64,000 bases of DNA, from NCBI GenBank assembly GCA_021414365.1, contig JAIOOR010000021.1, positions 62,001 through 126,000 of the forward strand, read 5' to 3'. This DNA is from Nitrosarchaeum sp. (GTDB lineage: Archaea > Thermoproteota > Nitrososphaeria > Nitrososphaerales > Nitrosopumilaceae). Of the stretch, positions 20,411-37,464 are shown piece by piece. The notes below the pieces were generated by a model. That model ran no database searches and had not been told where the DNA came from. It saw nothing but the letters and a program-made list of their open reading frames with translations. The position numbers were made by a program, and so were the translations under genes. Each line of letters starts with the position of its first letter. Positions within the stretch are counted from its first letter, which is position 1.

Positions 20411-22759
20411 ATGGCAAAATTCAAGTCAACGACTGAAGTGTTAAAGATCATCAAAAATAAAGAACAAATTCGTAACTTTGGTGTAATTGCTCACGTTGAT
20501 CACGGAAAGACAACCATGAGTGATAGTCTCTTGGCAGCATCTGGAATTATTGCCCCATCCGCTGCAGGAAAGGCATTGGCAATGGATTTTGATAAAGAGG
20601 AGCAAGCAAGAGGAATTACAATTTATCAGGCAAACGTCACATTACACTTTACTCAAAAAGATAAAGAATTTGTCATTAACATGATTGATACTCCAGGACA
20701 CGTTGATTTTAGTGGAAGGGTAATTCGTAGTCTTAGAGCAATTGATGGAGCAACTGTCGTATGTGATGCAGTTGAAGGAATTATGACTCAAACAGAAACA
20801 GTAACAAGAATGGCATTGGAAGAAAGAGTTAGACCTGTTTTATTCATAAATAAAGTAGATAGATTGATCAAAGAACTTCGTTTGACTCCAGAAAAAATGC
20901 AAGAAACTCTTGCAGGTGTAGTATCTAGCTTTAATCAATTAGTTGAAACCTATGCAGAACCTGAATACAAAGAAAAATGGAAAGTATCAATACAAGATGC
21001 TAGTGTGACATTTGGTTCTGCCAAAGACAAGTGGGCATTTAATGTAGATATCATGAAAGAAAAAGGAATTACATTCAAAGATGTTATTGATGCATATAAA
21101 AATGAAAAAGTGGACGATTTAGTTGCAAGAGCTCCTTTGGCTGACGCAGTATTGGGAATGGTCGTTAAACATGTTCCACCACCACATGTTGCTCAAAAAT
21201 ACAGAATCCCTCAAATTTGGAAAGGGGATCTTGAATCTGATATCGGAAAAGCACTTTTGGCATGCAGTGATGATGGACCAACAATTATGATGGTCGTTAA
21301 CATGGTATTGGATCCAGCTGCTGGTCCAGTTGCAATTGGCAGATTGTTCTCAGGAACAGTAAAAGATGGACAAACAGTTAACATAATAGATTCAAAACGA
21401 GAAGGCAGAATTCAATCTGTAAACTTTTTCATGGGTAACCAAAGAGAACAAGTTAATGAATTAGGTGCTGGAAATATTCCTGCACTTTTGGGATTGACTG
21501 AAGCCCGAGCAGGTAACACGATTTCATCCATTAAAGGTATTCCAATGTTTGAAGGAGTCAAATATGTTTCAGAACCTGTTGTTCAAATTGCAATTGAGCC
21601 AAAACATCCAAAAGATTTACCTAAACTAGTTGAGGTTCTCAGACAACTAACAATTGAAGATCCTAACCTGATAGTAAAAATCGATGAAGAGTCAGGCGAA
21701 ACTTTGGTTGCTGGAATGGGCGTATTGCACCTTGATGTAGCTACTCACCGTATTCAAGATGCTAAAGTGGAAATTATTACATCTGAACCACTTATCAATT
21801 ATAGAGAAACCGTCAAAGGAAAATGTGAACCTATCATGTCAAAATCACCAAATAGACATAACAAGATTTTCATGAAAGTAGAACCATTAGAACCAGCTAT
21901 AGCACACATGCTTAGAACTGGTGAAATCAGTGACATGAAAGACAAAAAGGTTGTAGCTGATCTTCTCAAAAGCGCTGGTTGGGATACTGATACTGTTAAG
22001 AGAGTTATGAAATTAGATCCTCGTGGAAATGTTATGATAAATGGAACAAAAGGTGTTCAATTTATTCAAGAATCAACTGACTCTATTAATTCTGGATTTG
22101 AAGAAGTTATGAAAGAAGGTCCTTTATGCAAAGAGCAAATGAGAGATTGCAAGTTCACTTTTACTCACTTTGTTCCTCACGAAGATACTGCACACAGAGG
22201 TTTGTCACAACTTGGACCTGCTTCTAGACGAGCTTGTATGGGAGCACTTTTAACAGCTGGAGTTACAATGCTAGAACCAATGCTTGCAATTGAAGTTAGG
22301 GTTCCAACAGATCTGGTGGGAAATGTTGCTACTGTGTTATCTGGAAAACGTGGAAAAGTACTTGATATGTCACAAAAAGGAGCTTCTAGCATTATTGTTG
22401 GTGAAATTCCAGCAGCTGAAACATTTACACTTTCAGAAGCAATGAGAGGTCAAACAGCTGGTCGTGCAACATGGAACACATCTTTTAAGGCATGGACTGA
22501 ACTTCCAAAATCTATTGCTACTACCGCAATTGCAGAAATAAGAAAAAGAAAAGGTCTAGCACCAACTAAGAAATGTTTCAACTTTTTGCCTTTGTTTAGG
22601 AATTGCGTTCTTAATTATCGGCTTTGCAATATTTTTTGCTTCAGATGTAGGTACAAAACCAGAAAAGATGGGAAATTTTTTCATGATACTAGGTGCTGTT
22701 CTTCTAGGAGTTGGATTCACTGCTCTAATTACAAAGAAATCCCTGTGACTCTCGATTGA
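20411..22759 (+). CDS. elongation factor 2 with aberrant C-terminal extension
   Basis: GVIAHVDHGKTTMSD, DTPGHVDFSGRV, NKVDR; normal similarity to IRKRKGLAP (approx. 22564), then an unrelated Cys-rich tail. Confidence 0.95.
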   Translation: MAKFKSTTEVLKIIKNKEQIRNFGVIAHVDHGKTTMSDSLLAASGIIAPSAAGKALAMDFDKEEQARGITIYQANVTLHFTQKDKEFVINMIDTPGHVDFSGRVIRSLRAIDGATVVCDAVEGIMTQTETVTRMALEERVRPVLFINKVDRLIKELRLTPEKMQETLAGVVSSFNQLVETYAEPEYKEKWKVSIQDASVTFGSAKDKWAFNVDIMKEKGITFKDVIDAYKNEKVDDLVARAPLADAVLGMVVKHVPPPHVAQKYRIPQIWKGDLESDIGKALLACSDDGPTIMMVVNMVLDPAAGPVAIGRLFSGTVKDGQTVNIIDSKREGRIQSVNFFMGNQREQVNELGAGNIPALLGLTEARAGNTISSIKGIPMFEGVKYVSEPVVQIAIEPKHPKDLPKLVEVLRQLTIEDPNLIVKIDEESGETLVAGMGVLHLDVATHRIQDAKVEIITSEPLINYRETVKGKCEPIMSKSPNRHNKIFMKVEPLEPAIAHMLRTGEISDMKDKKVVADLLKSAGWDTDTVKRVMKLDPRGNVMINGTKGVQFIQESTDSINSGFEEVMKEGPLCKEQMRDCKFTFTHFVPHEDTAHRGLSQLGPASRRACMGALLTAGVTMLEPMLAIEVRVPTDLVGNVATVLSGKRGKVLDMSQKGASSIIVGEIPAAETFTLSEAMRGQTAGRATWNTSFKAWTELPKSIATTAIAEIRKRKGLAPTKKCFNFLPLFRNCVLNYRLCNIFCFRCRYKTRKDGKFFHDTRCCSSRSWIHCSNYKEIPVTLD
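22573..22748 (+). pseudogene. frameshifted small membrane-protein ORF overlapping EF-2 tail
   Basis: ATG at 22573 reads MFQLFAFV*; adding one T in the T5 run 22583-22587 gives MFQLFCLCLGIAFLIIGFAIFFASDVGTKPEKMGNFFMILGAVLLGVGFTALITKKSL*. Confidence 0.5.
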
Positions 22760-23820
22760 CATTAAAAGGAAAAAACAATCACTATAATGTGAAATTGCTT
22801 CGTGGATATGGAGTATCTATTTCTCTTAAAAATAATAAAATTAATCTAAAAAACGGTACTGATGTATTATCTGGTAAATCTGAAACTGAATCTTGGTATA
22901 TTACTCAACTACCATATGAAAAAATTGTAATTTCTGGCAAAGGCTATATCTCTACTGATGCGCTAAAGTTACTAAATCAAAATAATCGAAATGTCATATT
23001 GACTGATACTTTTGGAAAACCAATTTCTTTTATGAATGGTATGATGGAATCTCTAACTGCTACCAAATACCGAATGGCTCAATATGATGCATTTCGCGAT
23101 CCCGAAAAATGTCTATACTTACAGAATCAAATAGTAAAGGCAAAATTGGAATCTCAAATTAAATTTCTCAAATCCACTGAAAATGAACTAGTTACAAATG
23201 GAATTGTCCAGTTAGAAGAATATCTAAAACAGATAGAAAATCATTCTGTTTCTCCTATCAAGATAGAGGCACCATCTAGTCATGTATATTTTAGAAATTT
23301 TGCCAAATTAATTCCTGAAAAATATGGCTTTAACTCTAGAAGCAATTCTGTAGTTCGAATAACAAAAAGAAACGCCACTGATGTGATTAATGCTCTATTG
23401 AATTATGGTTATGCTGTACTTGCTGGTGAGATATCTAAATTTGTAAACGGATTTGGCTTGGATGCTTATTGTGGGTTTTATCATAAACAGCACACTGGTT
23501 TTCAACCTCTAGTGTATGATATGATGGAGCCGTTTAGGTGGTTAGTAGATTCTGCAGTATTTCAGATTGCAACAAACAAGGATCATGGACAAAGAATCAG
23601 ACTCAAAGACTATGTACACACTAGAGATGGAATCGTGGTCTTGGATTCTTCTTTGATTAGACGATTTTTGGAGAAACTAGAGAGAGTGTTTCAAACAGAG
23701 CGAGAATACAAATTCAAACACGGTAGAAAGATGAAAAATGGAATGTCTATGTGTCAAGAAATTACTATTGTAAAGATATTTTGTGGGTTGTTATTGGATG
23801 ATATCAGAAAAGATGATTAA
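22756..23820 (+). CDS. cas1: Cas1-family integrase (casposase-like)
   Basis: LNYGYAVLAGEISKFVNGFGLDAYCGFYHKQHTGFQPLVYDMMEPFRWLVD: Cas1 active-site region. Confidence 0.92.
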   Translation: MTLKGKNNHYNVKLLRGYGVSISLKNNKINLKNGTDVLSGKSETESWYITQLPYEKIVISGKGYISTDALKLLNQNNRNVILTDTFGKPISFMNGMMESLTATKYRMAQYDAFRDPEKCLYLQNQIVKAKLESQIKFLKSTENELVTNGIVQLEEYLKQIENHSVSPIKIEAPSSHVYFRNFAKLIPEKYGFNSRSNSVVRITKRNATDVINALLNYGYAVLAGEISKFVNGFGLDAYCGFYHKQHTGFQPLVYDMMEPFRWLVDSAVFQIATNKDHGQRIRLKDYVHTRDGIVVLDSSLIRRFLEKLERVFQTEREYKFKHGRKMKNGMSMCQEITIVKIFCGLLLDDIRKDD

Positions 23821-23841
23821 TCATACAGATAATCGCATTCT

Positions 23842-24582
23842 ATGAATAAAGTTATTTTTAGTTTTTGTGTTGTTTTAATATTAAGTATCAGCGTATTTTT
23901 TGGTATAAGTTATAACGTATATTCTGAAAAAGAAAATTCAAGTTTTATTCTACCTGAATCCTTCTTTGAAAATAAATTTATTCAAGATATAATTTTAATT
24001 ACTATCCCCACAGCAAGTGCTTTTCTTACATCGTTGTATGTGACTAATACATGGCAAATTAGAAAAGAAAAACTTGAACTGCAACGAAAAATTTTAGATG
24101 AAGTTGACAATTCAATTGTAAATAGCATTCAAACATTGAAAAATTTTGATAGGATGTTATGGAGTAAATATACTATAGTAAATACTAGTATAGAAACAAA
24201 AGAAACTACAGAAGAAACAAAAGAAACTAAACTATATGAAACAAAATTTCCTTCTGAAAAATCAGAATATCCAAACCCAAAATTTGAAAAGGAACATAAT
24301 ATTTTTCTCACAAAATATGCTGATGAGACATTAGAACTCTGGAAATTTTCTTCTACCATAAAATTGTATTATGAAAAAAAACTTTTCGATGATTTTGATA
24401 AAATTGTGATAAGTTTAGATCCTACACGTAATGAACTAGAGAAATTATATAACTCAAAAAATAAAATGGAATTTGATTTATTTCATAAACAATTTATGAC
24501 AAAAAGAAAAACAATTGAATCTCAAATTATAAAATTCAAAGAAGATTTAGTTAAGGGTAAAATAAAAAAATTAAATGTTTAA
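23842..24582 (+). CDS. membrane protein with two TM helices and coiled-coil tail
   Basis: hydrophobic segments near N-terminus, charged C-terminal half. Confidence 0.65.
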   Translation: MNKVIFSFCVVLILSISVFFGISYNVYSEKENSSFILPESFFENKFIQDIILITIPTASAFLTSLYVTNTWQIRKEKLELQRKILDEVDNSIVNSIQTLKNFDRMLWSKYTIVNTSIETKETTEETKETKLYETKFPSEKSEYPNPKFEKEHNIFLTKYADETLELWKFSSTIKLYYEKKLFDDFDKIVISLDPTRNELEKLYNSKNKMEFDLFHKQFMTKRKTIESQIIKFKEDLVKGKIKKLNV

Positions 24583-27500
24583 TCAAGAAATTTTCTAAAA
24601 TCCTCATATCCTAACGAACCCAGAAAATTTATGCTCTCTTTCATTTTTTGTATTGCAGATGTATGTTTTGTTTTAAGGATTAATGGAAATATATTTTCAA
24701 AATGTCTTAACATTGTATACATTTCCCCGCTTGTTTGATAATGTTTAATCATTTTACCAATGCATTCAATAGTTTCAAGAGGGTATTCTTCTGCGAATAT
24801 ATGTAATTCTTCAGGAATCCAATATATTGGAGAAATCTCTCCTTTTGTTTCATCTAGAATTGAATTTAATAATTTGATTCGTTCTAATCTTGGCATTAAA
24901 GGATTCAAAAATAGCCATCCTGCACTAGGATTTGATTTTATTTTTGAATATGATATTAGTTTAGATACGTTCATTTTTGGAGGAGTTTTCTCCTTCCAAT
25001 CTTTTAATGCCCTGCCAATCCATTCGAGACAATCTTCTAATGATTGGGGATCTGATTTTTCTAGAAAATATTCGAATAATTCATCACTTCTTTTGAGACT
25101 ATGAAGGTAAACTAAACCAATTTGTTGAGCAAATCGTTGTTGTGAATCATTTAGTGAAGTATCTGTTCTTTTACCTGGATTCTTGATTCGGTACAAATAT
25201 TCTTCAAATAATGCATTGAAGCTTTTTTGGTAAATCTGTTGGAATGTATATGCGTCCCACGATGCATTTCCAGCTTTGGCATGTTGTTCATCATGAGAAA
25301 AAATTGAACCAATTTTAGACTTTGTCCATTTATCATCCAATGCTAATAGATTGTAGAAATTATGTCCTAAAACAGCGTGAATAGAAACAGATTGTTCTTG
25401 TTCAGGATTTAACATGGATTCTAAGAGATGCTTCACTTCAGGAACAAGTTCAGTAGGGGTGGGTCCTACGTTCTTTAATCCATAATAACACCATACGGCA
25501 TATTGCAATAAAGCATGACTTAATCTCCCAATGCTACTGTTGATAGATATCCCCATAGCGTCCCAATTTTTATCTGGATAGTTTTCAGACCATATTGTAT
25601 CGGGAGGTGCAATCTTGATGGCAGTATTCAATATATTCCAAATTTTATCTCGTAATGCAAAGGGAATTGCAGTTTCATTATGAAGTAAATTATTCTGTAA
25701 TAAATCCCCCAAATAATCCAAGATCAAATCTAAAATTTTTACATCTCTTGGTGGGGATTTAATTATAATAGATTCACAAAATATTAGAATTGCATCCCAA
25801 TCTAGTTTTTTATTTTTTATTTTAGATAACCCATCTAAAAATCTGTAATGAAATAGTCCTAAACACTCTATCAGTTCAGTGGCATGTTTAGAATATTCTT
25901 CAGGATTTTTTTCTACAAATTCTTTGAAAGTTCTTCCAGTTCCGTCCTCTTCTAAGAAAATATTTTCTGGAATCTTATACTGTTTTAAAAATTCTATTAC
26001 TTGGCTAACGGTCATGTCTTCTGTTAAATCTGAAGATTCTTTAACTTCTGAAAATGATTCATGATAACTAACGAATTCTGTTAAATTAGATATTCCATAT
26101 TCTTTTACAAGTGAATCGTATTCTTCTTGTAATTCAGGCAGATATTCTATAATTGGAGAGAGTTTTTCTATTTTCCAATGTTTTTTATATATTTCAAATT
26201 CATTTGGATTTCCTCTAAATTCCTCAAAATTTGGACCTTTTAAAATAACATCCAAAATAATCTCTTTATTCTCAGATTTTAAATGAGGGAAACTATTTTT
26301 CAACATGTGATAGTATTCATGTCTAAAACTACCTTTTGCAAAATATTCTACACATAATCGATTAATTTCTTCAATAAAATCTAAAGGGTGTTTTCCATAA
26401 AAATAAAGTTCTAACCTTCTAAAAATATAATACTTTTGTCCTGCAAGTACATTCAAAGATTTTTTAAGACTATCAATTCCAATACTTTCAGATTTTTCCA
26501 TGGTTCTACATATAGTAGCAACTAAGTGAGAGCGTATATCGAAATTGTAATTTTGTTCATGTTCTTCAATTGCAGGTCTCCAAACAAAGGACATATCTTG
26601 ATTAGGATCTTTTTGAAGTTCTTGACGAGTTTTGCTTGCAAGCCAATTGGCTTTAGATAACTTTTTTGCTAAAATTTGAATTACAACATCATGATCCTTT
26701 TCATATAAAACAGGAATATTTTCTTTCAAAATTGTTTCATAAGAATAACGATCGATGATACTACGTACATCTTTACGAGAACTAGAACTAATCATATCAG
26801 GAATTCCAGTGTCCATTAATGTAACATCTAATAGAAAATCACAAAGTTTCAAAGACGTTTCAAATTCTGAATCAACAAGTTTGATCATCAAATCTGCAAG
26901 TTCTCTGTCGAGAACTGAACTTATCATTCCATCACGCCATTTTTCTAGAATTGCTTTTTCAGCGATTAATTTTCCTAATTTTGGAGGCATTTTGAGTGCA
27001 GCGCCAACAAAATTTCTTAATACTGTAGAATTTTTTTCTAAATCTTTTTTGGGAGTTGGAGTTTGTAAAATTATTTTTCCTACCAAATCTGGTTTTTCAG
27101 AAGCAATGCGTTCTAAGTAATATGCTTCAGGCCAAAATGGAAATGAATAGGAGTTCTCTTTTCGGATAACTATAGGTACCTTCTTGAAATATTTGCCATC
27201 TTCAACTAGTACTTCTAACCAATTTCCTTTTGCATTTGCAAAGAAGTAGTTATATGATTGAGTATTTTTACTCATTAAAAATTCTAATTTTTCTAAATCC
27301 ATTTTATCAGGACTTGATTTTTTTATAAATTCATCAATTTCCTGAATTACCTCATAATGAGGTGTTAAAATATGACGCATGAGAGAAGTAAATTCTTCAA
27401 CCTTGGTAAGATATTCTTGCTCGGAAGGAGCATAGCCATGATGTGAAACATTGGTAAACCATGAGTGTAAATCAGTTAGTTGACTATATGTGAATTGAAG

Positions 27501-27872
27501 AAAATCAGGGAGGTTTGTTTGAGGATCAGTTATTTTTTGAACTTTTGTTTTAAAAGTTAAATTTGAAGCTGATGAAATAATTTTTGGATGACGTAATGTG
27601 ACATTCATCGTTTCTCTCATCGAGTGCGCAGATTGTGCAATTCTGTCAGGGTTCTCTTCTATAAAATTTTCAGAAAATGGGTTGGAATCATTTTGAGAAT
27701 TTTCATTACCAGAAGTAGTTTCTGAAAAAGGACTTTCTGAAACTTGTGTTTGAACCGTATTTTTTTGACGTAATACTATTAGTCCTGAATAATATATTTT
27801 TCCTAAATTTGAATCGATTTTTGTTAATTCTTCAAATACCTTCTTTTCGTCATCTGAAGAAAAACTGACCAT
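24579..27872 (-). CDS. 1097-aa helical protein of unknown function (candidate cargo)
   Basis: single long ORF; no NTPase motif seen; NPDRIAQSAHSMRE and LHSWFTNVSHHGY near N-terminus. Confidence 0.8.
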   Translation of the reverse strand: MVSFSSDDEKKVFEELTKIDSNLGKIYYSGLIVLRQKNTVQTQVSESPFSETTSGNENSQNDSNPFSENFIEENPDRIAQSAHSMRETMNVTLRHPKIISSASNLTFKTKVQKITDPQTNLPDFLQFTYSQLTDLHSWFTNVSHHGYAPSEQEYLTKVEEFTSLMRHILTPHYEVIQEIDEFIKKSSPDKMDLEKLEFLMSKNTQSYNYFFANAKGNWLEVLVEDGKYFKKVPIVIRKENSYSFPFWPEAYYLERIASEKPDLVGKIILQTPTPKKDLEKNSTVLRNFVGAALKMPPKLGKLIAEKAILEKWRDGMISSVLDRELADLMIKLVDSEFETSLKLCDFLLDVTLMDTGIPDMISSSSRKDVRSIIDRYSYETILKENIPVLYEKDHDVVIQILAKKLSKANWLASKTRQELQKDPNQDMSFVWRPAIEEHEQNYNFDIRSHLVATICRTMEKSESIGIDSLKKSLNVLAGQKYYIFRRLELYFYGKHPLDFIEEINRLCVEYFAKGSFRHEYYHMLKNSFPHLKSENKEIILDVILKGPNFEEFRGNPNEFEIYKKHWKIEKLSPIIEYLPELQEEYDSLVKEYGISNLTEFVSYHESFSEVKESSDLTEDMTVSQVIEFLKQYKIPENIFLEEDGTGRTFKEFVEKNPEEYSKHATELIECLGLFHYRFLDGLSKIKNKKLDWDAILIFCESIIIKSPPRDVKILDLILDYLGDLLQNNLLHNETAIPFALRDKIWNILNTAIKIAPPDTIWSENYPDKNWDAMGISINSSIGRLSHALLQYAVWCYYGLKNVGPTPTELVPEVKHLLESMLNPEQEQSVSIHAVLGHNFYNLLALDDKWTKSKIGSIFSHDEQHAKAGNASWDAYTFQQIYQKSFNALFEEYLYRIKNPGKRTDTSLNDSQQRFAQQIGLVYLHSLKRSDELFEYFLEKSDPQSLEDCLEWIGRALKDWKEKTPPKMNVSKLISYSKIKSNPSAGWLFLNPLMPRLERIKLLNSILDETKGEISPIYWIPEELHIFAEEYPLETIECIGKMIKHYQTSGEMYTMLRHFENIFPLILKTKHTSAIQKMKESINFLGSLGYEDFRKFLD

Positions 27873-27917
27873 AGAATATGAAAATAATACTAGAATTAAT
27901 TCATGTCTCTAATTGAT

Positions 27918-29798
27918 TCATAATTCACTTTCTGGATCATATGCTCCTTCATCATAACCTGCCCATATTACATCTGTTTTTGATATAATATCGCCCACTA
28001 AATCAATAGGAATAGGCACGGAATCGCAGAATTTCTTGTCATTTAGTGATTCTAGTTGAGAAAACCACATTCTCTTTCTATCAGAGTTTAATCCAATTTT
28101 CTTGTCATATGTCTCAATTTTCCCAATATCGTCAATTTTGTTAAAAGTGATGGCACCTTTGATGTGCGGTGTTCGTGTGGTTTGAATTGTAATGTAGAGA
28201 TTTCCTTTCTCATCGATTTTTGTATCCAAATGCTGAATCTCTATTTTTCTTTCAGTGTCATATCCAATACCGCGATTCTTCCATGTATCATTAATGTAGT
28301 AAAATCCGTTAGATAGAAAATATGTATCATATCCAAACTTGTCTAGTTTCATTTCACCTAGTTCTTTACTATCTAAACCATGAATTTTTTTTCTGCATGC
28401 AATTGAATCAGTTGCAAATGCAACAACATCTTTTTCAATGTTGTTTTCTCTGACAAACTTGTACAGTTGTGCCCTTGCAAAACCTGTAATGTATGCAGAA
28501 ATGACAGGATTAAACAAGTTGCCCATCACATTATTTACTCTTTGAGCCATCTTTCCATAAACGGAATTTAAAATAATTTTGATTGCACGCTCCAAAGAAT
28601 TTCCTTCTTGTTTTAGTTGCAATCTTTTTTGGTACTGTGATTTTATAAAATCTCTAAACGGATAACCACAGTTTGGATTTGCAACAAATTGAAACGACTC
28701 TAGTATTTTGTATTTTATTCTAGTGTCTCCAGTTACTGCCTTTAGTTCTTCTAGTGTAACAAATGTCTCAAATTCTCCACATGGATAGATTATTCTGTTG
28801 CTTTTTGTCCTAAATGGAAATGGCGCAATTTTTACAGAGTCAGAAACATATGCTCGTATATGAAAAAATCCGACTGACGCCTTAGGATTAATTCTAGTAC
28901 TGCCAAACCATTTGCCATCATTAATGTCTGGAAGAAATGTTAACGCATATGGATATGCAGAATTGATGTCGTAAATGTAACATTCTCCAATGTATCCGCG
29001 TTGAATTAGCTCAAATCTGCCTCCGTAGAAGGATTTCCAAGCAAGATCCTGAATATCATAAGGAATATCGTCAAATAATGCAATTTCAATGTCGTTGAAT
29101 ATCAAGACCTTTTCTGCCAGATATCCAGAACTTATCCAGTTTGCCGTATAGAACTGGTATGCATTAAAAAAAGTATCAAGCCAATAGTCTGCAAGTTCAA
29201 GAGTCAGGACACAATCCATTAGACAGTATTTTCTCATCTGATTCTTGTTTCTCTGAAAATATCGCAATGAGAATTTTTTCCTACTTTCTTTCATGTCTAG
29301 ATAGTCTTGATCAAGTGGTTTTTTGATGTGTTCAGAATATGCTTTTACCAAATTTTTGTTATCATAGTATTGTGCAATGTCATATAATGAAATGGAGTGG
29401 CTTCCTTTTCTTATTGTCAGTTGCTTTTTTGGAATGTAGCGTATATCATATCCATTGTATGCAAAATTCAATAGTTTTGTTGTCTTGTATATTTTGAGAG
29501 TGTCTCGTGGCAATAACTTTAGAATACATTCAGCATCAAACTGCAAGTTATAGAAAAATATCCAACATCCTTCATATCTTAAAAGAAATTTTGCAATGGT
29601 ATCAAATGTAATGTTTGGATACTCTAGCTTGTCTCCGTTTGATAGCATAAAGAGAAAAATATTTCCATCGTGTGTTTCAGTGTCTGCACCTAATGTTTTT
29701 CTTCTTTGTGATACGTTTGGATTTCTGTTTTGTCGTCTTGTCTTGATAAAAGTAAGATCTTTTGCATTTGATTTTGGAGTGTGAATCTGCAAAGTCAT
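27918..29798 (-). CDS. family B DNA polymerase, protein-primed type
   Basis: Exo motifs ADTETHDG, FYNLQFDA, YCLMDC; Pol motifs YDINSAYPYAL, KIILNSVYGKMAQ, FATDSI. Confidence 0.88.
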   Translation of the reverse strand: MTLQIHTPKSNAKDLTFIKTRRQNRNPNVSQRRKTLGADTETHDGNIFLFMLSNGDKLEYPNITFDTIAKFLLRYEGCWIFFYNLQFDAECILKLLPRDTLKIYKTTKLLNFAYNGYDIRYIPKKQLTIRKGSHSISLYDIAQYYDNKNLVKAYSEHIKKPLDQDYLDMKESRKKFSLRYFQRNKNQMRKYCLMDCVLTLELADYWLDTFFNAYQFYTANWISSGYLAEKVLIFNDIEIALFDDIPYDIQDLAWKSFYGGRFELIQRGYIGECYIYDINSAYPYALTFLPDINDGKWFGSTRINPKASVGFFHIRAYVSDSVKIAPFPFRTKSNRIIYPCGEFETFVTLEELKAVTGDTRIKYKILESFQFVANPNCGYPFRDFIKSQYQKRLQLKQEGNSLERAIKIILNSVYGKMAQRVNNVMGNLFNPVISAYITGFARAQLYKFVRENNIEKDVVAFATDSIACRKKIHGLDSKELGEMKLDKFGYDTYFLSNGFYYINDTWKNRGIGYDTERKIEIQHLDTKIDEKGNLYITIQTTRTPHIKGAITFNKIDDIGKIETYDKKIGLNSDRKRMWFSQLESLNDKKFCDSVPIPIDLVGDIISKTDVIWAGYDEGAYDPESEL

Positions 29799-30172
29799 GG
29801 GCTAGGATTCCTCCATATGACTTCAGAAATATCGGTCTCTAGTCCTTTTTTGAATTTTGAGAATTCAGAACGTAATTGTTTAATTGATTTTTTAGTATCA
29901 TAATTTTTGTGAATTGCTCTAAAATAATTCCAAGTACGTTTCATCTTATGACTGCGATTTTTGTTTGCTTCAGTTCGTCTGCTTTGCTTTTCTTGCTCTT
30001 TTGATTTCTTTGACTGTTCTATTTTTCTAATTTGATTTTGGATATTCATTCGCTCTCCCATTAATTGTCGTAGGAATTTTTTGGTCTGAGTAGTTTGTCT
30101 GAATGATTGTAATGACTCCATCTCTTTTTCGATAATCTCAATTTCTTTGCGTAATCGTGTGATTTTAGGCAC
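29795..30172 (-). CDS. small basic coiled-coil protein overlapping polymerase start
   Basis: 125 aa, highly basic, overlaps PolB start by 4 nt. Confidence 0.65.
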   Translation of the reverse strand: MPKITRLRKEIEIIEKEMESLQSFRQTTQTKKFLRQLMGERMNIQNQIRKIEQSKKSKEQEKQSRRTEANKNRSHKMKRTWNYFRAIHKNYDTKKSIKQLRSEFSKFKKGLETDISEVIWRNPSP

Positions 30173-30214
30173 GATTTAGGTATAAAATAATCAATTATCA
30201 GTCAGTAAGTAGAT

Positions 30215-30242
30215 TTATGATATTATGAGTCATAGGTCATAA
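30215..30242. promoter_or_regulatory. candidate operator TTATGA-TA-TTATGA-G-TCATA-GG-TCATAA
   Basis: symmetric half-sites directly upstream of the wHTH gene at 30259. Confidence 0.45.
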
Positions 30243-30258
30243 AGGAGAAAAATGCCAC

Positions 30259-31047
30259 ATGTCAAATAATAAAGATATTCAAACCATTCTTAGAAACAGA
30301 CTATCTCATAAATTGTTTTTAGAGATATTTTTGAGGCCTGCATCAGGATACAAATTGGCTCAAATAGTTCAAAATACAACCAAAACCCCAAACACAAAAT
30401 CAGTATACCGTGTATTAAAAAATTTAACAGAACAAGACTATGTCATATATGAAAATCAAAAATATCATCACAATCCAACAAAACTAACAAAAGAACTTGT
30501 TACTTATCTAAAATCAAAAGACATATCATTTACATCTAATGAAACAAATTCTCTTTTGTATTTACTCTCCAGTACTAGATTTTTTATTTATTTTAGAGAG
30601 TTTATCGCTAAAGACAACCAAAAAAATAAAATTTCTAATAACGTGTTAGAAGAAATTTCAAATATTGTGGGAATGTTCTCTGCAATACTTTACCATGGAA
30701 TGGAAACATCTGTATCTAAACCATTACCTGTTAAAATATCTCTAGAAAAAGCATTTGAACGACAGACAATAATTGCCAATGGACTACCTGAAAAAATCTC
30801 TAAAATTGTACGAGGTTCAAAATCAGAAAGAAAAGCACAGCAAAAATATTTAGAAGAACTTTACTTGTTTTTACTTTCCTTTTCATTTTTATTTGTAGTG
30901 CAGGAAAAAATTCCTAAAAAATCATTAGAAAAATTTGCACAGTTATGGGATCAGTATGAAGGATTCAAGATAGGTATCAGGGTTGGTAAAATTGATTTTA
31001 AAAACAATCCTCTAACAAAACTTTTTGATTCTAAAATTACAAAATAA
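30259..31047 (+). CDS. winged-helix DNA-binding protein
   Basis: ILRNRLSHKLFLEIFLRPASGYKLAQIVQ...SVYRVLKNLTEQDYVIYENQKYHHN. Confidence 0.65.
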   Translation: MSNNKDIQTILRNRLSHKLFLEIFLRPASGYKLAQIVQNTTKTPNTKSVYRVLKNLTEQDYVIYENQKYHHNPTKLTKELVTYLKSKDISFTSNETNSLLYLLSSTRFFIYFREFIAKDNQKNKISNNVLEEISNIVGMFSAILYHGMETSVSKPLPVKISLEKAFERQTIIANGLPEKISKIVRGSKSERKAQQKYLEELYLFLLSFSFLFVVQEKIPKKSLEKFAQLWDQYEGFKIGIRVGKIDFKNNPLTKLFDSKITK

Positions 31048-31089
31048 TACTAATTGATTTCTGTAAACTAAAAATTATGTTATTAAAAA

Positions 31090-32298
31090 TTAGGACATCT
31101 CTTGTTGTTTAACTGTGATTTTAGTTAAAACATTTTTTGGCCCATCATCATTCATCACTATTAACAATCCACTGCCTTTTCCAATATTTTTACACGTGTT
31201 ACTGAAGCTAAGCATTCCCTCTCGATAGCAACTGCTATCCACATAATGAGAAAACTTTCCAGTTTTGCTCCATTTGTTCATCTCATCTGGAGAAGGTACA
31301 ACATAAACATCAAATCCTTGCCGGTTATTGTCAGATTTTACCGAATAATAGTAGGATGTAACATCTTTGATGGTACAAAATGGAACAAATTGGGCATAAC
31401 CTGCATTTAGGGTATATTCTTCTTGTACTAGACCATACTCACGATTAAGGGCAATTGGATACATGATACTATTACGATCATTACTGTGTTGGAATCCAAG
31501 AACATGTCCAAGCTCATGTTTCATGATATCTGCCACATGATGTCCTGAATACGGTTGCCATTTTCCATGGCATTCACTGTCCCCCAACCCTACCTCGACA
31601 TATTGTTTACCTAACGTGTATCCAACATGTTCGACTCCAAATTCCTTGACCCATGCAATATGAACATCGGCAACATTCAATGATGGAGCCTTGTAAAATT
31701 TTAATCCGGAATTGACATCTTCCCATGCTCTAGTTGATTCATACATTACATTTCCAGCATAATATGCCCAAGTAGGTAATGCATCTGCATAGACCTGATA
31801 AGTTTTTGTGTATTTAGTAGGTGTAACAGAATTAGATGAAGAACCTGAATTGGATGAACTGGAATAACTGCTTTGAGTGTTGATAGAATACGATGATTTT
31901 GCAGTTACAACAACACTTGGCCACCCTGCTTTTGCACTTGTAATTTTACTTACACCATCATAAACTGCGTAAAAATGATATGCACCGCCAGAGCGAATCT
32001 GTGCTTTCCATATGCCAGAAAATTTACCGTTACTATCAGTAGTTAATTTCAGAATTTGTGTGCCTGAACTGACACTTGGTTCATCTTTGATAATTACAGT
32101 GGCTCGTGTTATTACATATCTTCCATCTTTTGTTACTAACTGACCTGAGAATTTCACATTGTCTCCAGCATTAATGCCAGTAGGGATTGAATCAAGTATT
32201 ATTTTGGAATAATACATTCCAGAGGATTGTGCACTAACACTTGAATAAGTAGAAATTAGAAATAATGAAACAAGTGCAATTATCAGTATGATCCTCAT
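31090..32298 (-). CDS. secreted matrixin-type (M10) metalloprotease
   Basis: HELGHVLGFQHSNDRNSIMYP zinc site plus Met-turn-like segment; signal peptide; N-terminal beta domain. Confidence 0.85.
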   Translation of the reverse strand: MRIILIIALVSLFLISTYSSVSAQSSGMYYSKIILDSIPTGINAGDNVKFSGQLVTKDGRYVITRATVIIKDEPSVSSGTQILKLTTDSNGKFSGIWKAQIRSGGAYHFYAVYDGVSKITSAKAGWPSVVVTAKSSYSINTQSSYSSSSNSGSSSNSVTPTKYTKTYQVYADALPTWAYYAGNVMYESTRAWEDVNSGLKFYKAPSLNVADVHIAWVKEFGVEHVGYTLGKQYVEVGLGDSECHGKWQPYSGHHVADIMKHELGHVLGFQHSNDRNSIMYPIALNREYGLVQEEYTLNAGYAQFVPFCTIKDVTSYYYSVKSDNNRQGFDVYVVPSPDEMNKWSKTGKFSHYVDSSCYREGMLSFSNTCKNIGKGSGLLIVMNDDGPKNVLTKITVKQQEMS

Positions 32299-32386
32299 AT
32301 GATCTCTCTTCAGTAAGATAATTTATTAGCATTTTAAGTATTTTGTAACTGTATTTTTCATTAATTTCAGTAATAGTTTAGAAATA

Positions 32387-32490
32387 GTTACATTATGAAT
32401 TAGAGTTTCATTATGACAATTACATTATGAATTACAGTTTCATTTTAGTTTCATTATGGCAGTTACACTATGATTTTGCCAATTTCATGA
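32387..32490. repeat. cluster of CATTATGA-like repeats
   Basis: copies starting near 32391, 32409, 32423, 32441 (diverged), 32452, 32466 (diverged); the first two TTACATTATGAATTA units are 32 nt apart. Confidence 0.65.
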
Positions 32491-32506
32491 ATAATTACTC
32501 ATGAAA
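32483..32506. repeat. perfect inverted repeat TTTCATGA-8nt-TCATGAAA
   Basis: direct reading. Confidence 0.8.
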
Positions 32507-32530
32507 CTAGAAATTATTACGTTTTCAGGC

Positions 32531-32554
32531 GTGAAATTACATTGTGAATTTCAC
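32531..32554. repeat. perfect inverted repeat GTGAAATT-8nt-AATTTCAC
   Basis: direct reading. Confidence 0.8.
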
Positions 32555-32567
32555 AAAGTTATTCGTG

Positions 32568-32595
32568 GAAATTATTACGTATTAGTAATAGTTTC
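32568..32595. repeat. inverted repeat GAAATTATTAC-6nt-GTAATAGTTTC (10/11)
   Basis: direct reading; GAAATTATTACGT also occurs at 32510 and a variant at 32600. Confidence 0.7.
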
Positions 32596-32649
32596 TAATG
32601 AAATTGTTACAGTTTCAAATGTTTTACAATTGCTTTTCATTACGCGTTA

Positions 32650-33489
32650 TCAAACAATTTCATTTTCTACTACCCCTTGTTTTTTTAATTTATTTCTGAA
32701 TTCTTCAGTGAGAATTTTCTTTGAGAACAAAGTAAAAAAACAAGTTAAGACTATCGGAAGTGCAAAATAAGCATACTCTGTTGGGAAAGATTGTTCAGGA
32801 ATTTTTAATTCTGACAGTGTTGCCCATATGATGTTTATGGCAAAAAAACTAATAATTGCATTTTTATAAATTGAAAAACCTGTAATAATGGTATTTTTCT
32901 TTTTTAACTTTATTCTAATGTTTGATGAATACAGAATTGCAATGGGAAATATCAACAAATATGAAATAACTGAAAATATTGATGTATCGATAAGAAAATT
33001 CCATGCAGTATATGGACTAGAGGGCAGAAGAAAAAAAGGATGTAAAAAACGATTCAAAATAAACGATAATGACCAAGTGCCAATAAACACAATGCCTGTC
33101 ACTTCATACCATTTAGTCTGATTTTTTAAAAGAAATACATCCGATAATGGAATTTGTTTTATGCTTATAATCATATGAATTAACGAGAATCTCTGAATAT
33201 TAAAAAACACTTTAGTTAATCGAGAACTTTCGGTATGAGCAATTAACCAAATCATTAAACTGCTATGCCCAATCATAAAGAAAAATACAAATCTTATGAC
33301 TAACAGTTGTTGTTCGTCTAAAATTTTTAAATCCGATGAGAAAAGGGTTCCAAACAAGTCAAAAAATCCCAGATATCCTAATACTACATATGTGATTATT
33401 GACCATGTAAAAAGAACAACAAAGAATATTTTCATGGTTTGAGATCTAATTGGAATTCCGTTTAGATAGATAATTTCTTTATTAAACAT
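32650..33489 (-). CDS. multi-pass membrane protein
   Basis: multiple hydrophobic segments. Confidence 0.7.
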   Translation of the reverse strand: MFNKEIIYLNGIPIRSQTMKIFFVVLFTWSIITYVVLGYLGFFDLFGTLFSSDLKILDEQQLLVIRFVFFFMIGHSSLMIWLIAHTESSRLTKVFFNIQRFSLIHMIISIKQIPLSDVFLLKNQTKWYEVTGIVFIGTWSLSFILNRFLHPFFLLPSSPYTAWNFLIDTSIFSVISYLLIFPIAILYSSNIRIKLKKKNTIITGFSIYKNAIISFFAINIIWATLSELKIPEQSFPTEYAYFALPIVLTCFFTLFSKKILTEEFRNKLKKQGVVENEIV

Positions 33490-33580
33490 AGTAACTCTTT
33501 ATTATCATTCTTATTATTCTAAAACATTACCACAAACATCAAATTTCTAATCTCATGCCAATAATTTTGATTCATACTGT

Positions 33581-34081
33581 CTATTCAATTACAGTTTTTT
33601 TCAATCTGTAAAAATCATCTTCAGAGATTTCTCCTTTTGCTAAACGCATTTTAAGAACCTTGATTACTTCCTCTGCTTCTTTTGGTATTTCACCGTGATA
33701 TTCGTTCTCTGAATTACGAGGTTTAGTGTATGCTGTTGCAGCTCCCAATCCTTTTTGAAATCCGAGAAATTTTTGCATTTCTTGCCAGATTACTTTAACA
33801 TCTTTAGGATTTCCCTCAAACGGAATTTTTTGTGTCCTTGTCTCAATAATTAAAAATCCTTTTTTGCGGACTATTCCCTGCTCGTCATATTTCAGATTAG
33901 ATACTTCCTCTAAAGCAACTGAAAACACTCTGTCTTTTTTGAAGATAAACCCCTTTCGTCTATGTCCTATGATTCTTCTATTTGTAATAAAGAGGACATA
34001 ATTTTCTGCTCCATATTGAATATCATGCTTGCTTTGGTATTGGATTACTTCTTGTGGGAGCAAAAAGTCCTCTAAGACCAT
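33581..34081 (-). CDS. PH-like domain protein with C-terminal SHOCT motif
   Basis: C-terminal VIKVLKMRLAKGEISEDDFYRLKKTV. Confidence 0.65.
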   Translation of the reverse strand: MVLEDFLLPQEVIQYQSKHDIQYGAENYVLFITNRRIIGHRRKGFIFKKDRVFSVALEEVSNLKYDEQGIVRKKGFLIIETRTQKIPFEGNPKDVKVIWQEMQKFLGFQKGLGAATAYTKPRNSENEYHGEIPKEAEEVIKVLKMRLAKGEISEDDFYRLKKTVIE

Positions 34082-34112
34082 TATTTCTCCTAGATTATGA
34101 AAATAATAAAGA

Positions 34113-34337
34113 TTATGCCTTGAATAATTTTCTTATTTTTTCTCCTAAAGAAACGGCTACATCTGCTGGATATGGGGCAAATCTTTCAGATGGAATTCCG
34201 CTAATTCCTAGTGAGATTCCAAGTAGGACTAGTATGGAAATTACCCAAAGGAAATGAATTGAGTACAAAAACAATATTCCTATTGAAAAGACTAATGAAA
34301 ACACTATGCTTTTTTTGATTAGGGCTGATTTTTTCAC
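34113..34337 (-). CDS. small membrane protein
   Basis: two hydrophobic segments. Confidence 0.55.
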   Translation of the reverse strand: MKKSALIKKSIVFSLVFSIGILFLYSIHFLWVISILVLLGISLGISGIPSERFAPYPADVAVSLGEKIRKLFKA

Positions 34338-34454
34338 TGTATTTTAAAAATTTAATCAAAACTTAAGATCAATGTAGTATTTTTAAAACAACAATTTTTA
34401 CACATTCAGAAAATCAGATTTAAAACATTACGAGAAGTATAATCATTTACTAGA

Positions 34455-34934
34455 TTAGGGCTTAAACGATACTTCAAATTTTAATGTATCATACGAGTGA
34501 TTAGGGTTTTGATATTTAGAATCATTCACAAGAACTTCTATAGGTTTAGTGATTTCATGACATTTTGTACAATGATGTAAAAATGTTCCAGAAAACACTG
34601 GATGCTGTTTTATTTTGTCCTGAATAAATTCAACTTCCGGATTCTTTTCAACATTAATTCCATACCGTTCTAATTCTTTAACAAACTTTTCACGTAAAGC
34701 TTCATTTTGTTGTATTCTTGTATCCCCACCACTAAAGATATATCCTAAATTGATAAGTGCAGTTCTTAATTCATAATGTCTTGCCATCAAAATCAATCTG
34801 TTTTGAGATCGTCTATTTTCAGTAGTTTGCCAAATGCCGAAAAGTACAGTAAATACTATCGCTCCAATAAATCCAAAAATTGTTAAATCAATACTAGAAG
34901 GATCAGTGACATTTCCAAAAAATATACTACCCAT
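34455..34934 (-). CDS. membrane-anchored hypothetical protein
   Basis: N-terminal TM helix. Confidence 0.6.
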   Translation of the reverse strand: MGSIFFGNVTDPSSIDLTIFGFIGAIVFTVLFGIWQTTENRRSQNRLILMARHYELRTALINLGYIFSGGDTRIQQNEALREKFVKELERYGINVEKNPEVEFIQDKIKQHPVFSGTFLHHCTKCHEITKPIEVLVNDSKYQNPNHSYDTLKFEVSFKP

Positions 34935-35021
34935 AAAATTAATATTTCATTCTAGAATATTATCTTATTTATTTATTATCTTAAGCATTACGACAAGCGT
35001 CATGTTTTACTGCCTAAACTG

Positions 35022-35066
35022 GGGGCATTCTATTTTTATAGACAGAGAATAAAAATAGAACGCCCC
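35022..35066. repeat. long hairpin: 18-bp arms (17/18), 9-nt loop
   Basis: GGGGCATTCTATTTTTAT - AGACAGAGA - ATAAAAATAGAACGCCCC. Confidence 0.8.
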
Positions 35067-35100: not shown

Positions 35101-36645
35101 CTAATCTTGATTTTCAGATTGTTTTTTAGTTGATTTTTGTGGTTTTGATTTACTTGATCTTGTTTTAGATAATTTTAGTTGCTTATTTTTTTCTAATAGT
35201 TCTTTCTTAATTTTTTGTTGTTCTTCTTTTAATTTCTGTTTTTCCAATTTAATTTGTATTTCAACTTTCTCTCGTTTCTGTTTGATTTCTTCTAACGCCT
35301 TTTTTTCATCCGCAAGTTGCTTTGCTAACATCCCCTGCATTTTTAATTTTTCTTTCTCTTCTTTTGCTATTTTAGCAATATTTTCTTTTTCTTTAACGAT
35401 GACATTGTCTATTTTTAATCTCTCTTCTTTTGCTTTAATTAGATTATTTTCTTGAGATTTAATTAATTTTTTCAGTTTTGTTGATTCAACAAGTTTAGTT
35501 TTCTCACTTTTTACTTGAGAGGTGATCTCCTCATATTCTTTCTTAGTTTTTTCTAAATCTGACTGTTTTTCCTTTATATCTTGCGTAATTTGAGACTGTT
35601 TGAACAGATTTGCTTTTTGAACATTTAACATTTTAGAAAGTAGTGCCTGTTCAGATTTAATTTGTTTTTCAATTTCTTCTTGTTCAGAACATGTTTGTAA
35701 TAGTTGTTTTTTCTGAAATTCTAGTTCTTTTGATACTGTGTCTTTTTCACTTGCAATCTTTTTCGTTAATTCTACTCTCTCAGATTTCACTTTTTCCAGT
35801 TCCTCTTTTTGTAATAGAATTTGCTCAGATAGTTTAGTCTGTGCCTGAATATTGAGATGCTCTTCTTTAATTTGTGAGTCTAGCAAAGATTTTTCCAGTG
35901 AAACTTGTTTTTCATACTCTTTTCTATTTAGAATAATCTGAGATAATTTAGAGCGTTGTACATTTATTTCATCATAAATTTTTTTGTTATCTTTAAGTAA
36001 CTCTTCTTCAGATTTTATTTTTTCATATATTCCGGTTAATTCCTTCATGTTGTTGTCTGGAGGTCTCCACTCTTTTGGCATTAATCCACGAAGTTTTGTA
36101 GTGATATGTGTAGTCTGAGGTATTGTTTCCCTGTATATCTCAATTTTATTTTTAGGTTTATTCTCCATCTCAATTTTATTTTCAAATACTTTCTCAGAAT
36201 TAATAGTAATATCTTTTGAAGAAATATTATTTGATTCTAATTGCTGTTCAAGATAAACCTGATCTGAATGATATAGTGGCTTATTTCTTGATATCATATC
36301 ATAAATATGTTGCAGTCGTCCAGGATCTCCGTTACCTAAATTAATTATTGTTTGAATTTTTAAAAGAACACGATTTTCTTTGGGCCTTTCCTCGTCAACA
36401 ATAATAAATTGAGTGCAAAGCTTGTCCTCTAAATATTTTTGGTCTGAATGATATAGTGGTCTGTCTCGTTTAAGAAATTCAAGAATATGATATAATCGTC
36501 CAACATCTCCATTATCTGTGTCAATTAAATATTGAACCTTTTTAATAATCTGAGTTTGTGTGAGCTGTCTTTGAGCAATCTCATTATCCAATTCATTTTT
36601 GAGTAGTAACAGTTTAGTATAAAAAAACAGATAAAGAAAATTCAC
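35101..36645 (-). CDS. coiled-coil protein with two N-terminal GDxGRLxHI...PLYHSDxxYLE repeats
   Basis: GDVGRLYHILEFLKRDRPLYHSDQKYLEDKL and GDPGRLQHIYDMISRNKPLYHSDQVYLEQQL. Confidence 0.75.
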   Translation of the reverse strand: MNFLYLFFYTKLLLLKNELDNEIAQRQLTQTQIIKKVQYLIDTDNGDVGRLYHILEFLKRDRPLYHSDQKYLEDKLCTQFIIVDEERPKENRVLLKIQTIINLGNGDPGRLQHIYDMISRNKPLYHSDQVYLEQQLESNNISSKDITINSEKVFENKIEMENKPKNKIEIYRETIPQTTHITTKLRGLMPKEWRPPDNNMKELTGIYEKIKSEEELLKDNKKIYDEINVQRSKLSQIILNRKEYEKQVSLEKSLLDSQIKEEHLNIQAQTKLSEQILLQKEELEKVKSERVELTKKIASEKDTVSKELEFQKKQLLQTCSEQEEIEKQIKSEQALLSKMLNVQKANLFKQSQITQDIKEKQSDLEKTKKEYEEITSQVKSEKTKLVESTKLKKLIKSQENNLIKAKEERLKIDNVIVKEKENIAKIAKEEKEKLKMQGMLAKQLADEKKALEEIKQKREKVEIQIKLEKQKLKEEQQKIKKELLEKNKQLKLSKTRSSKSKPQKSTKKQSENQD

Positions 36646-36863: not shown

Positions 36864-36877
36864 ATAGGTCGACCTAT
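36864..36877. promoter_or_regulatory. 14-bp perfect palindrome ATAGGTCGACCTAT
   Basis: 5 nt upstream of the start of the 36883 gene. Confidence 0.6.
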
Positions 36878-36882
36878 TACTA

Positions 36883-37464
36883 ATGACCTATGTTGAGCCT
36901 GATTCTGAACTATATGAGCGTGAGAGAATAGTTCTAGAGTATGTCAAAAAATACCCTGATAAACATCATAACGCATTGATCAAAATGATAGTTCCTGAAT
37001 ACATGGCTAAAACTACCTTTGAAAAAACTCGTAATGCGTTACTTGAAAAAGAGACAATCTCTGTCCAAAAAAAAGGAAATATGAAATTCTATATTCCAAC
37101 CCAGAATTATTCTATGCGATTTCAACAACATGTAGAAAGAATCACCAATATTTCTTTTCACAATATAAAAAATCAAATAAAAAAAATTGAATCATCATAT
37201 CACCATAAAGATGTGGCTGAAAAGATTTTCTTGGCAAATTTATTGCTAAAAAATCTATTTCAAATTGACAATGGATTTACTTTTCTTGATTCAAGCAAAA
37301 ATCCAAAAAAAACTTTGTATCGTGATGAGCATCAAGAAATACAGGAATTGATTTATAGGCTTTTTCAGATTATTCATAACGATAAAGATTTTGATACAAT
37401 TTATCCTACAATTATGATCTATTTCAGTACCAATATGCCAAAAAACTATCAAGACTCAGAATAG
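36883..37464 (+). CDS. winged-helix transcriptional regulator-like protein
   Basis: IVLEYVKKYPDKHHNALIKMIVPEYMAKTTFEKTRNALLEKETISVQKKGNMKFY. Confidence 0.6.
   Translation: MTYVEPDSELYERERIVLEYVKKYPDKHHNALIKMIVPEYMAKTTFEKTRNALLEKETISVQKKGNMKFYIPTQNYSMRFQQHVERITNISFHNIKNQIKKIESSYHHKDVAEKIFLANLLLKNLFQIDNGFTFLDSSKNPKKTLYRDEHQEIQELIYRLFQIIHNDKDFDTIYPTIMIYFSTNMPKNYQDSE

Follow-up and report, generated by a model that had tools for sequence, protein, structure and literature searches.

The question raised by this locus is why an intact gene for Cas1 starts within the altered 3′ end of the gene for the translation factor EF-2, and whether it belongs to a mobile element. The locus lies in a 64,000-nucleotide (nt) stretch (hereafter the window, in whose numbering all coordinates are given) of Nitrosarchaeum sp. 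assembly GCA_021414365.1, contig JAIOOR010000021.1, positions 62,001 to 126,000, the host being a Nitrosarchaeum-like ammonia-oxidising archaeon. An earlier note, made from the sequence alone, had proposed a family 1 casposon or its remnant at EF-2, and our analysis makes it highly probable that window positions ~22,565 to 35,037 represent such a casposon, which inserted at the EF-2 3′ end and later suffered a deletion of its left end. The proposal is borne out by the clade to which Cas1 belongs and by relatives that lack the element, and the target is that of the family, which inserts at the 3′ ends of protein-coding genes and most often of EF-2. Both ends were inspected for terminal inverted repeats (TIRs) and for flanking target-site duplications (TSDs); the TIR is present at the right and absent from the left, and just the right TSD copy, ATAGACAGAGAAT, was found, the left one having lain in the deleted end of EF-2. 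The element is for this reason classed as a family 1 casposon derivative with its left end deleted, and not as a complete member. The casposon type is already known, and it is the rewritten EF-2 that is the surprising part.

The earlier description of a Cas1 with an intact active site, beginning inside the aberrant EF-2 end, was confirmed by the coordinates of the open reading frame (ORF; Table 1) and by the presence of residues E171, H243, D255 and E258, which are invariant in an alignment of relatives. A profile of ten Cas1 relatives gave as its best solved match 6opm, which we take to be the Methanosarcina mazei casposase (cf. PMC6977970); CRISPR Cas1 structures ranked below it. A tree of 59 Cas1 sequences pairs the window protein with that of Nitrosarchaeum sp. 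nzgw8 (support 98) inside a clade of 24 (SH-aLRT 95-97) which holds both proteins of Nitrosotalea devanaterra, the elements of which are published family 1 casposons (PMC6563490); longer Cas1s, and ten Cas1s from records with Cas2 beside cas1, form separate clades. Cas1 is thereby placed in the family 1 casposon clade and not with CRISPR-associated Cas1, the grouping that had been named as fatal to the proposal.

The family B polymerase that had been described some 4 kb away as protein-primed is encoded 4.1 kb from cas1 and retains the Exo motifs together with the Pol motifs DINSAYP, KIILNSVYG and ATDS. As the PolB sequence profile found no match in the PDB, fold comparison was used instead, and an AlphaFold2 model (pLDDT 79.8) had phi29 DNA polymerase as its top match among solved structures (E=3.3e-17) and the His1 virus polymerase as its top match among viral models (E=1.7e-33). 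PolB is accordingly modelled with the phi29/His1 protein-primed fold, and family 1 PolBs have been placed beside His1 and His2 (PMC4046053). Family 1 elements share three to four small genes directly upstream of polB, of which one, encoding 125 amino acids (aa), is conserved here, while the others were not recognised. The 125-aa gene is 30-75% identical in 6 other casposons, each time adjoining polB, and its position would fit that proposed for a terminal-protein gene (PMC4046053). Neither the EF-2/casposon junction nor relatives of PolB were found in IMG/VR.

The right end of the element was located at 35,037, with TIR and TSD, 4 kb beyond the position (31,047) at which the earlier note had closed it. 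The right TIR (reverse complement AAAAATAGAATGCCCCCAGTTTAGGCAGTAAAACATGACGCTTGTCGTAATG) is 84% identical over 55 nt to a left TIR in a related genome, G010 (E=6e-11), and 81% identical over 63 nt to a left TIR of nzgw8 (G007; E=2e-10). Of the TIR and TSD that had previously escaped notice, the right pair is thus recovered, while the left TIR is genuinely absent from the sequence; large inverted and direct repeats were dismissed as A+T-rich chance matches. The TSD together with the following AA encodes I-D-R-E-stop, which is the EF-2 ending lost upstream, and directly past the TSD stands AAAAATAGAACGCCCC, the TIR end left by an older casposon that had inserted at this site and decayed. The search for element-free sites, the failure of which had been named as decisive against the proposal, succeeded in two relatives (G008 and G009) without cas1 or polB at EF-2: EF-2 lies ~1.2 kb from the homologue of a coiled-coil gene (window 35101-36645), or ~0.7 kb from that of a helix-turn-helix (HTH) gene (36868-37461), and nothing of 22,565-35,037 intervenes. 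Most relatives in the genus have only TIR-like sequences past the EF-2 stop, which would be fossils of earlier insertions.

At the left end, the EF-2 ORF is 96% identical to relatives through residue 718 and then diverges abruptly. Complete EF-2 genes of relatives finish with PPGIEEYIDRE and a stop, or a close variant, whereas in the window the last 12 amino acids are replaced by 64 unrelated residues. A frameshift was ruled out as the cause because the DNA past GCACCA is unrelated to the EF-2 tail; at the junction GCACCA is followed immediately by ACTAAGAAATG, and the foreign DNA matches, at 90% identity, the opening part of a small membrane ORF of the relative G003. A mismatch-tolerant search of the genome found no second copy of the EF-2 tail elsewhere, the one convincing copy being that at window 35,035-35,055. 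The small membrane ORF had already been noticed and does exist, albeit 5′-truncated. It has homologues in three other genomes; in G010 it lies ~120 nt past a TIR closely resembling the window's right TIR, and in G106 it stands between a TIR and the first cas1 codons, a remnant of a cas1 start. Set against relatives, the window is short of an estimated ~160 bp, which would have held the final 12 codons of EF-2 with its stop codon, the TSD and TIR of the left side, a short leader, and the codons with which the membrane ORF began; the remark that little room was left for a conventional left TIR agrees with this absence. The undeleted end, as modelled, would have an EF-2 ending like GAATATATAGACAGAGAATAAAAA and a TIR, then the membrane ORF, and the deletion junction permits 2-3 nt of microhomology (CA/CAA). 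A contig end in G003 (G003:C9) was dropped as an example of an intact left end, its own outer TIR being lost, leaving G010 and G106 as the clean comparison.

Over the membrane-ORF stretch the window differs from G003 at 16 positions, 12 of which are third codon positions in the membrane-ORF frame. Read in that frame, nine of the 15 changed codons are synonymous; read in the EF-2 frame, 13 of 15 alter the amino acid. Since the differences follow the membrane-ORF frame, selection acted on this ORF until a recent time, and its translation as part of EF-2 is a young by-product. The EF-2 stop and the cas1 start overlap by 4 nt as TTGA, so that the EF-2 message probably also carries cas1, with coupled translation of the two. 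Elsewhere, in G001 (L072:2763-3015), the EF-2 stop runs directly into the middle of a small gene, the homologue of which stands just before a casposon end in G003 (L093:245-628); the G001 arrangement is possibly another casposon-boundary deletion.

In the history that we propose, a casposon would have inserted at the EF-2 3′ end, upstream of the older decayed one, its Cas1 casposase cutting the EF-2 end at staggered positions and joining the TIR 3′ ends, after which repair would have yielded the ~13-nt TSD and restored the EF-2 ending. The same route is inferred here because the family 1 casposase of Nitrosopumilus koreensis integrates TIR oligonucleotides specifically at its EF-2 target in vitro (PMC6614799). 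Judging from what is known of the family, the element would have been copied by its own protein-primed polymerase. A later deletion of ~160 bp, possibly by way of the short microhomology, would then have taken the EF-2 end with the left TSD and TIR, the beginning of the first gene and the EF-2-side target. With one TIR gone mobility would have ended, as the ability to excise or integrate is expected to be lost without a left TIR, and the element is probably immobile at present; the suggestion that this may be a decayed or immobilised copy is in agreement with a deleted left TIR and TSD beside a preserved right pair. On balance we favour the view that in living cells the boundary deletion rewrote the C terminus of EF-2, an essential protein with a single gene copy, by exchanging 12 conserved residues for 64 out-of-frame ones, and brought the casposase gene, through the 4-nt overlap, into the EF-2 transcription unit. 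In this the window is unlike the cases of the founding paper, in which target genes were not altered by casposons (PMC4046053).

Four points weigh against this history: the altered EF-2 rests on one assembly; loss of a universally kept ending from an essential gene is unexpected; integration is unverifiable by a matched pair, as the left TIR and TSD are absent; and a fully virgin EF-2 site was not found within the genus, where relatives free of cas1 and polB mostly carry TIR fossils. It could be argued that the living population carries the entire casposon and that the junction of EF-2 with the left end is an assembly or chimera artefact which dropped ~160 bp, given that every relative with a complete gene for the essential EF-2 keeps the ending IDRE-stop or similar, and that in several related assemblies the break falls precisely where EF-2 ends, showing the site to be hard to assemble. 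The junction, however, is internal to a contig of 206 kb, the genome being 99.9% complete, and shares only 2-3 nt with its flanks, a homology so short that assemblers rarely join on it, and the lost EF-2 tail is without a second copy in the genome, which leaves such an artefact unlikely.

That the element has been domesticated, with the EF-2/cas1 overlap under selection and a casposase made from the EF-2 message serving the host, would suit the intact cas1 and polB, the overlap and the lost left end; yet the mark of selection is on the membrane-ORF frame and not on the EF-2 tail, the deletion looks young and the arrangement was found in no relative, and we regard this explanation as improbable. 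Scarcely any credence is given to a fixed, non-mobile chromosomal cas1-polB neighbourhood of EF-2: cas1 does stand beside EF-2 in several genera of the order, but the element-free alleles of G008 and G009 contradict it, relatives have TIRs and TSDs, the cargo differs from element to element and copies occur at other targets. Homology to CRISPR Cas1 is what a stand-alone CRISPR-Cas adaptation module would have in its favour. Such a module has Cas2 and an array, and no Cas2 match was found in the whole genome, nor did 22-44 kb contain a CRISPR-like repeat array, which extends an earlier remark that neither was visible; with Cas1 also outside the Cas2-linked clade and with element ends present, the chance of such a module is negligible. 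We thus retain the casposon with a deleted left end.

The closest relative of the window element is the second casposon of Nitrosarchaeum sp. nzgw8 (G007:C2:84.4-102.9 kb, JAHFUM010000004.1), with 82% identity in Cas1, 70% in PolB and 75% in the 125-aa gene and with the same TIR type, but it is 18.5 kb long, has paired TIRs and DUF4062/STAND defence cargo, and is the middle one of three. The family 1 casposons of N. devanaterra, one in EF-2 and one elsewhere (PMC6563490), share with the window the Cas1 clade, a protein-primed PolB, the 124/125-aa gene upstream of polB, the EF-2 target for one copy and the ORF order from the left end, while they differ in having both TIRs and TSDs, an intact EF-2 and other cargo. 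The tandem pair NitNF5-C1/C2, family 1 casposons in EF-2 (PMC6563490) compared here by description only, likewise uses the EF-2 3′ end repeatedly and in tandem, whereas the second element of the window is a TIR stub only and the first is without its left end. NitAR1-C1 of N. koreensis (PMC6614799) has the same EF-2 target and a family 1 casposase without a C-terminal HTH domain and, unlike the window's, is a complete element.

Table 1. Features of the EF-2/casposon locus (window coordinates).
Feature	Coordinates	Strand	Basis or remark
EF-2 ORF	20411-22759	+	stop TGA at 22757-22759
EF-2 native residues 1-718, casposon target gene	20411-22564	+	aEF-2 TIGR00490, 820.7 bits
Non-native 64-residue EF-2 extension and stop, out of frame through casposon DNA	22565-22759	+	
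Small membrane protein ORF, 5′-truncated, first casposon gene	22566-22748	+	homologues straight after casposon TIR in G010:C40 and G106:C7
cas1 (casposase), intact	22756-23820	+	Pfam PF01867, E=1.8e-50; start TTG at 22756
246-aa ORF, cargo	23842-24582	+	matches no Pfam, NCBIfam, PADLOC or PHROG family
Dsr1-like defence protein, 1097 aa, cargo, without sirtuin domain	24579-27872	-	PADLOC Dsr1, E=4.9e-39
polB, family B DNA polymerase	27918-29798	-	PF03175 (DNA_pol_B_2), E=6.9e-22
125-aa gene directly upstream of polB	29795-30172	-	kept in related casposons
262-aa PadR-like winged-helix ORF, cargo or regulator	30259-31047	+	weak PadR match, E=0.003, under curated cut-off
Secreted M10-type metalloprotease, cargo	31090-32298	-	PF00413, E=1.2e-9
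Four further cargo ORFs (32650-33489, 33581-34081, 34113-34337, 34455-34934)	32650-34934	-	inside right TIR; no clear families
Right TIR	34983-35037	-	similarity to related TIRs
Right TSD ATAGACAGAGAAT	35038-35050	+	~13 nt
Outer TIR stub of older decayed casposon, same site	35051-35066	+	15/16 matches to related TIR ends

A succession of small ORF, cas1, cargo, polB and 125-aa gene is common to the TIR/TSD-bounded second element of nzgw8 and to N. devanaterra, and a further relative (G013) matches the window from cas1 through cargo and polB to the 125-aa gene; the cargo differs between the window, the nzgw8 element and N. devanaterra. In the Dsr1-like protein, residues 173-961 align to positions 291-1082 of the 1227-position Dsr1 profile, i.e. 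to the C-terminal region only. Dsr1 combines an N-terminal SIR2 NADase with a C-terminal sensor region, a combination that this protein does not have, as no SIR2 family match was obtained. The first ~170 residues, in place of a sirtuin, have a sequence without a match to any family, so that the effector may have been swapped; relatives of the protein were found in none of 120 related genomes. The cas1-polB interval holds a DUF4062/STAND pair in nzgw8, an OLD-type TOPRIM fragment in G013 and a DUF4062 protein in N. devanaterra, and casposons are reported to carry nucleases and other defence-associated genes (PMC6563490); the four elements suggest a recurrent slot for defence genes between cas1 and polB. 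The metalloprotease has a distant homologue in one of the nzgw8 casposons.

Tandem family 1 casposons at EF-2 have been published for Nitrosopumilus adriaticus (PMC6563490). At EF-2 of nzgw8 there are three consecutive elements, of which the first two retain intact cas1 and polB and the third is a fossil (L064 and L063, G007:C2:84.4-113 kb; the genes of the first casposon are oriented opposite to those of the second); in G013 and in N. devanaterra a single element precedes a fossil. About ten relatives have the first 25-73 codons of cas1 standing alone (L062:8067, L063:5367, L071:3957, L076:5168, L077:3157, L101:691 and others); these cas1 starts were rejected as conserved small proteins and are read as fossils of deleted casposons, since most run into stop codons at differing points. 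The genome of the window also holds a fragment from a second casposon polB (G000:C26:37718-38235; L094 9719-10236), 85-88% identical to the window polB, which adjoins a 1250-aa gene, on our reading an apparent STAND-type ATPase, and a likely nuclease-domain ORF. At G000:C9:755-905 (L075) a casposon TIR lies directly past the stop of another gene, ending in ADEAIKNL, and is followed by a cas1 C-terminal remnant; this site is a second casposon target used in this genome. In relatives, casposon TIRs away from EF-2 (L066:6666, L102:5441, L204 and L205) occupy sites resembling the EF-2 3′ end, TTTAT[CT]GA, with CA[AG]TAAAA next in most, as if secondary targets mimic that end.

At four sites (the window, nzgw8, G013 and N. 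devanaterra) the fossil lies farther from EF-2 than the intact elements, an order that is consistent and suggestive, not proven. CRISPR arrays gain new spacers at the leader side, and the order at EF-2 resembles that of such arrays; ordered, leader-proximal insertion of casposons can now be tested across hundreds of genomes. The window itself contributes a casposon that can be read unusually well, at the classic EF-2 site and backed by a fossil stub, and illustrates how a casposon can become immobilised, one small deletion removing one end and the target together. If the altered EF-2 is true of living cells, it would represent a casposon that changed its target gene, and a natural test of whether the C-terminal tail of EF-2, an essential translation factor, is dispensable.

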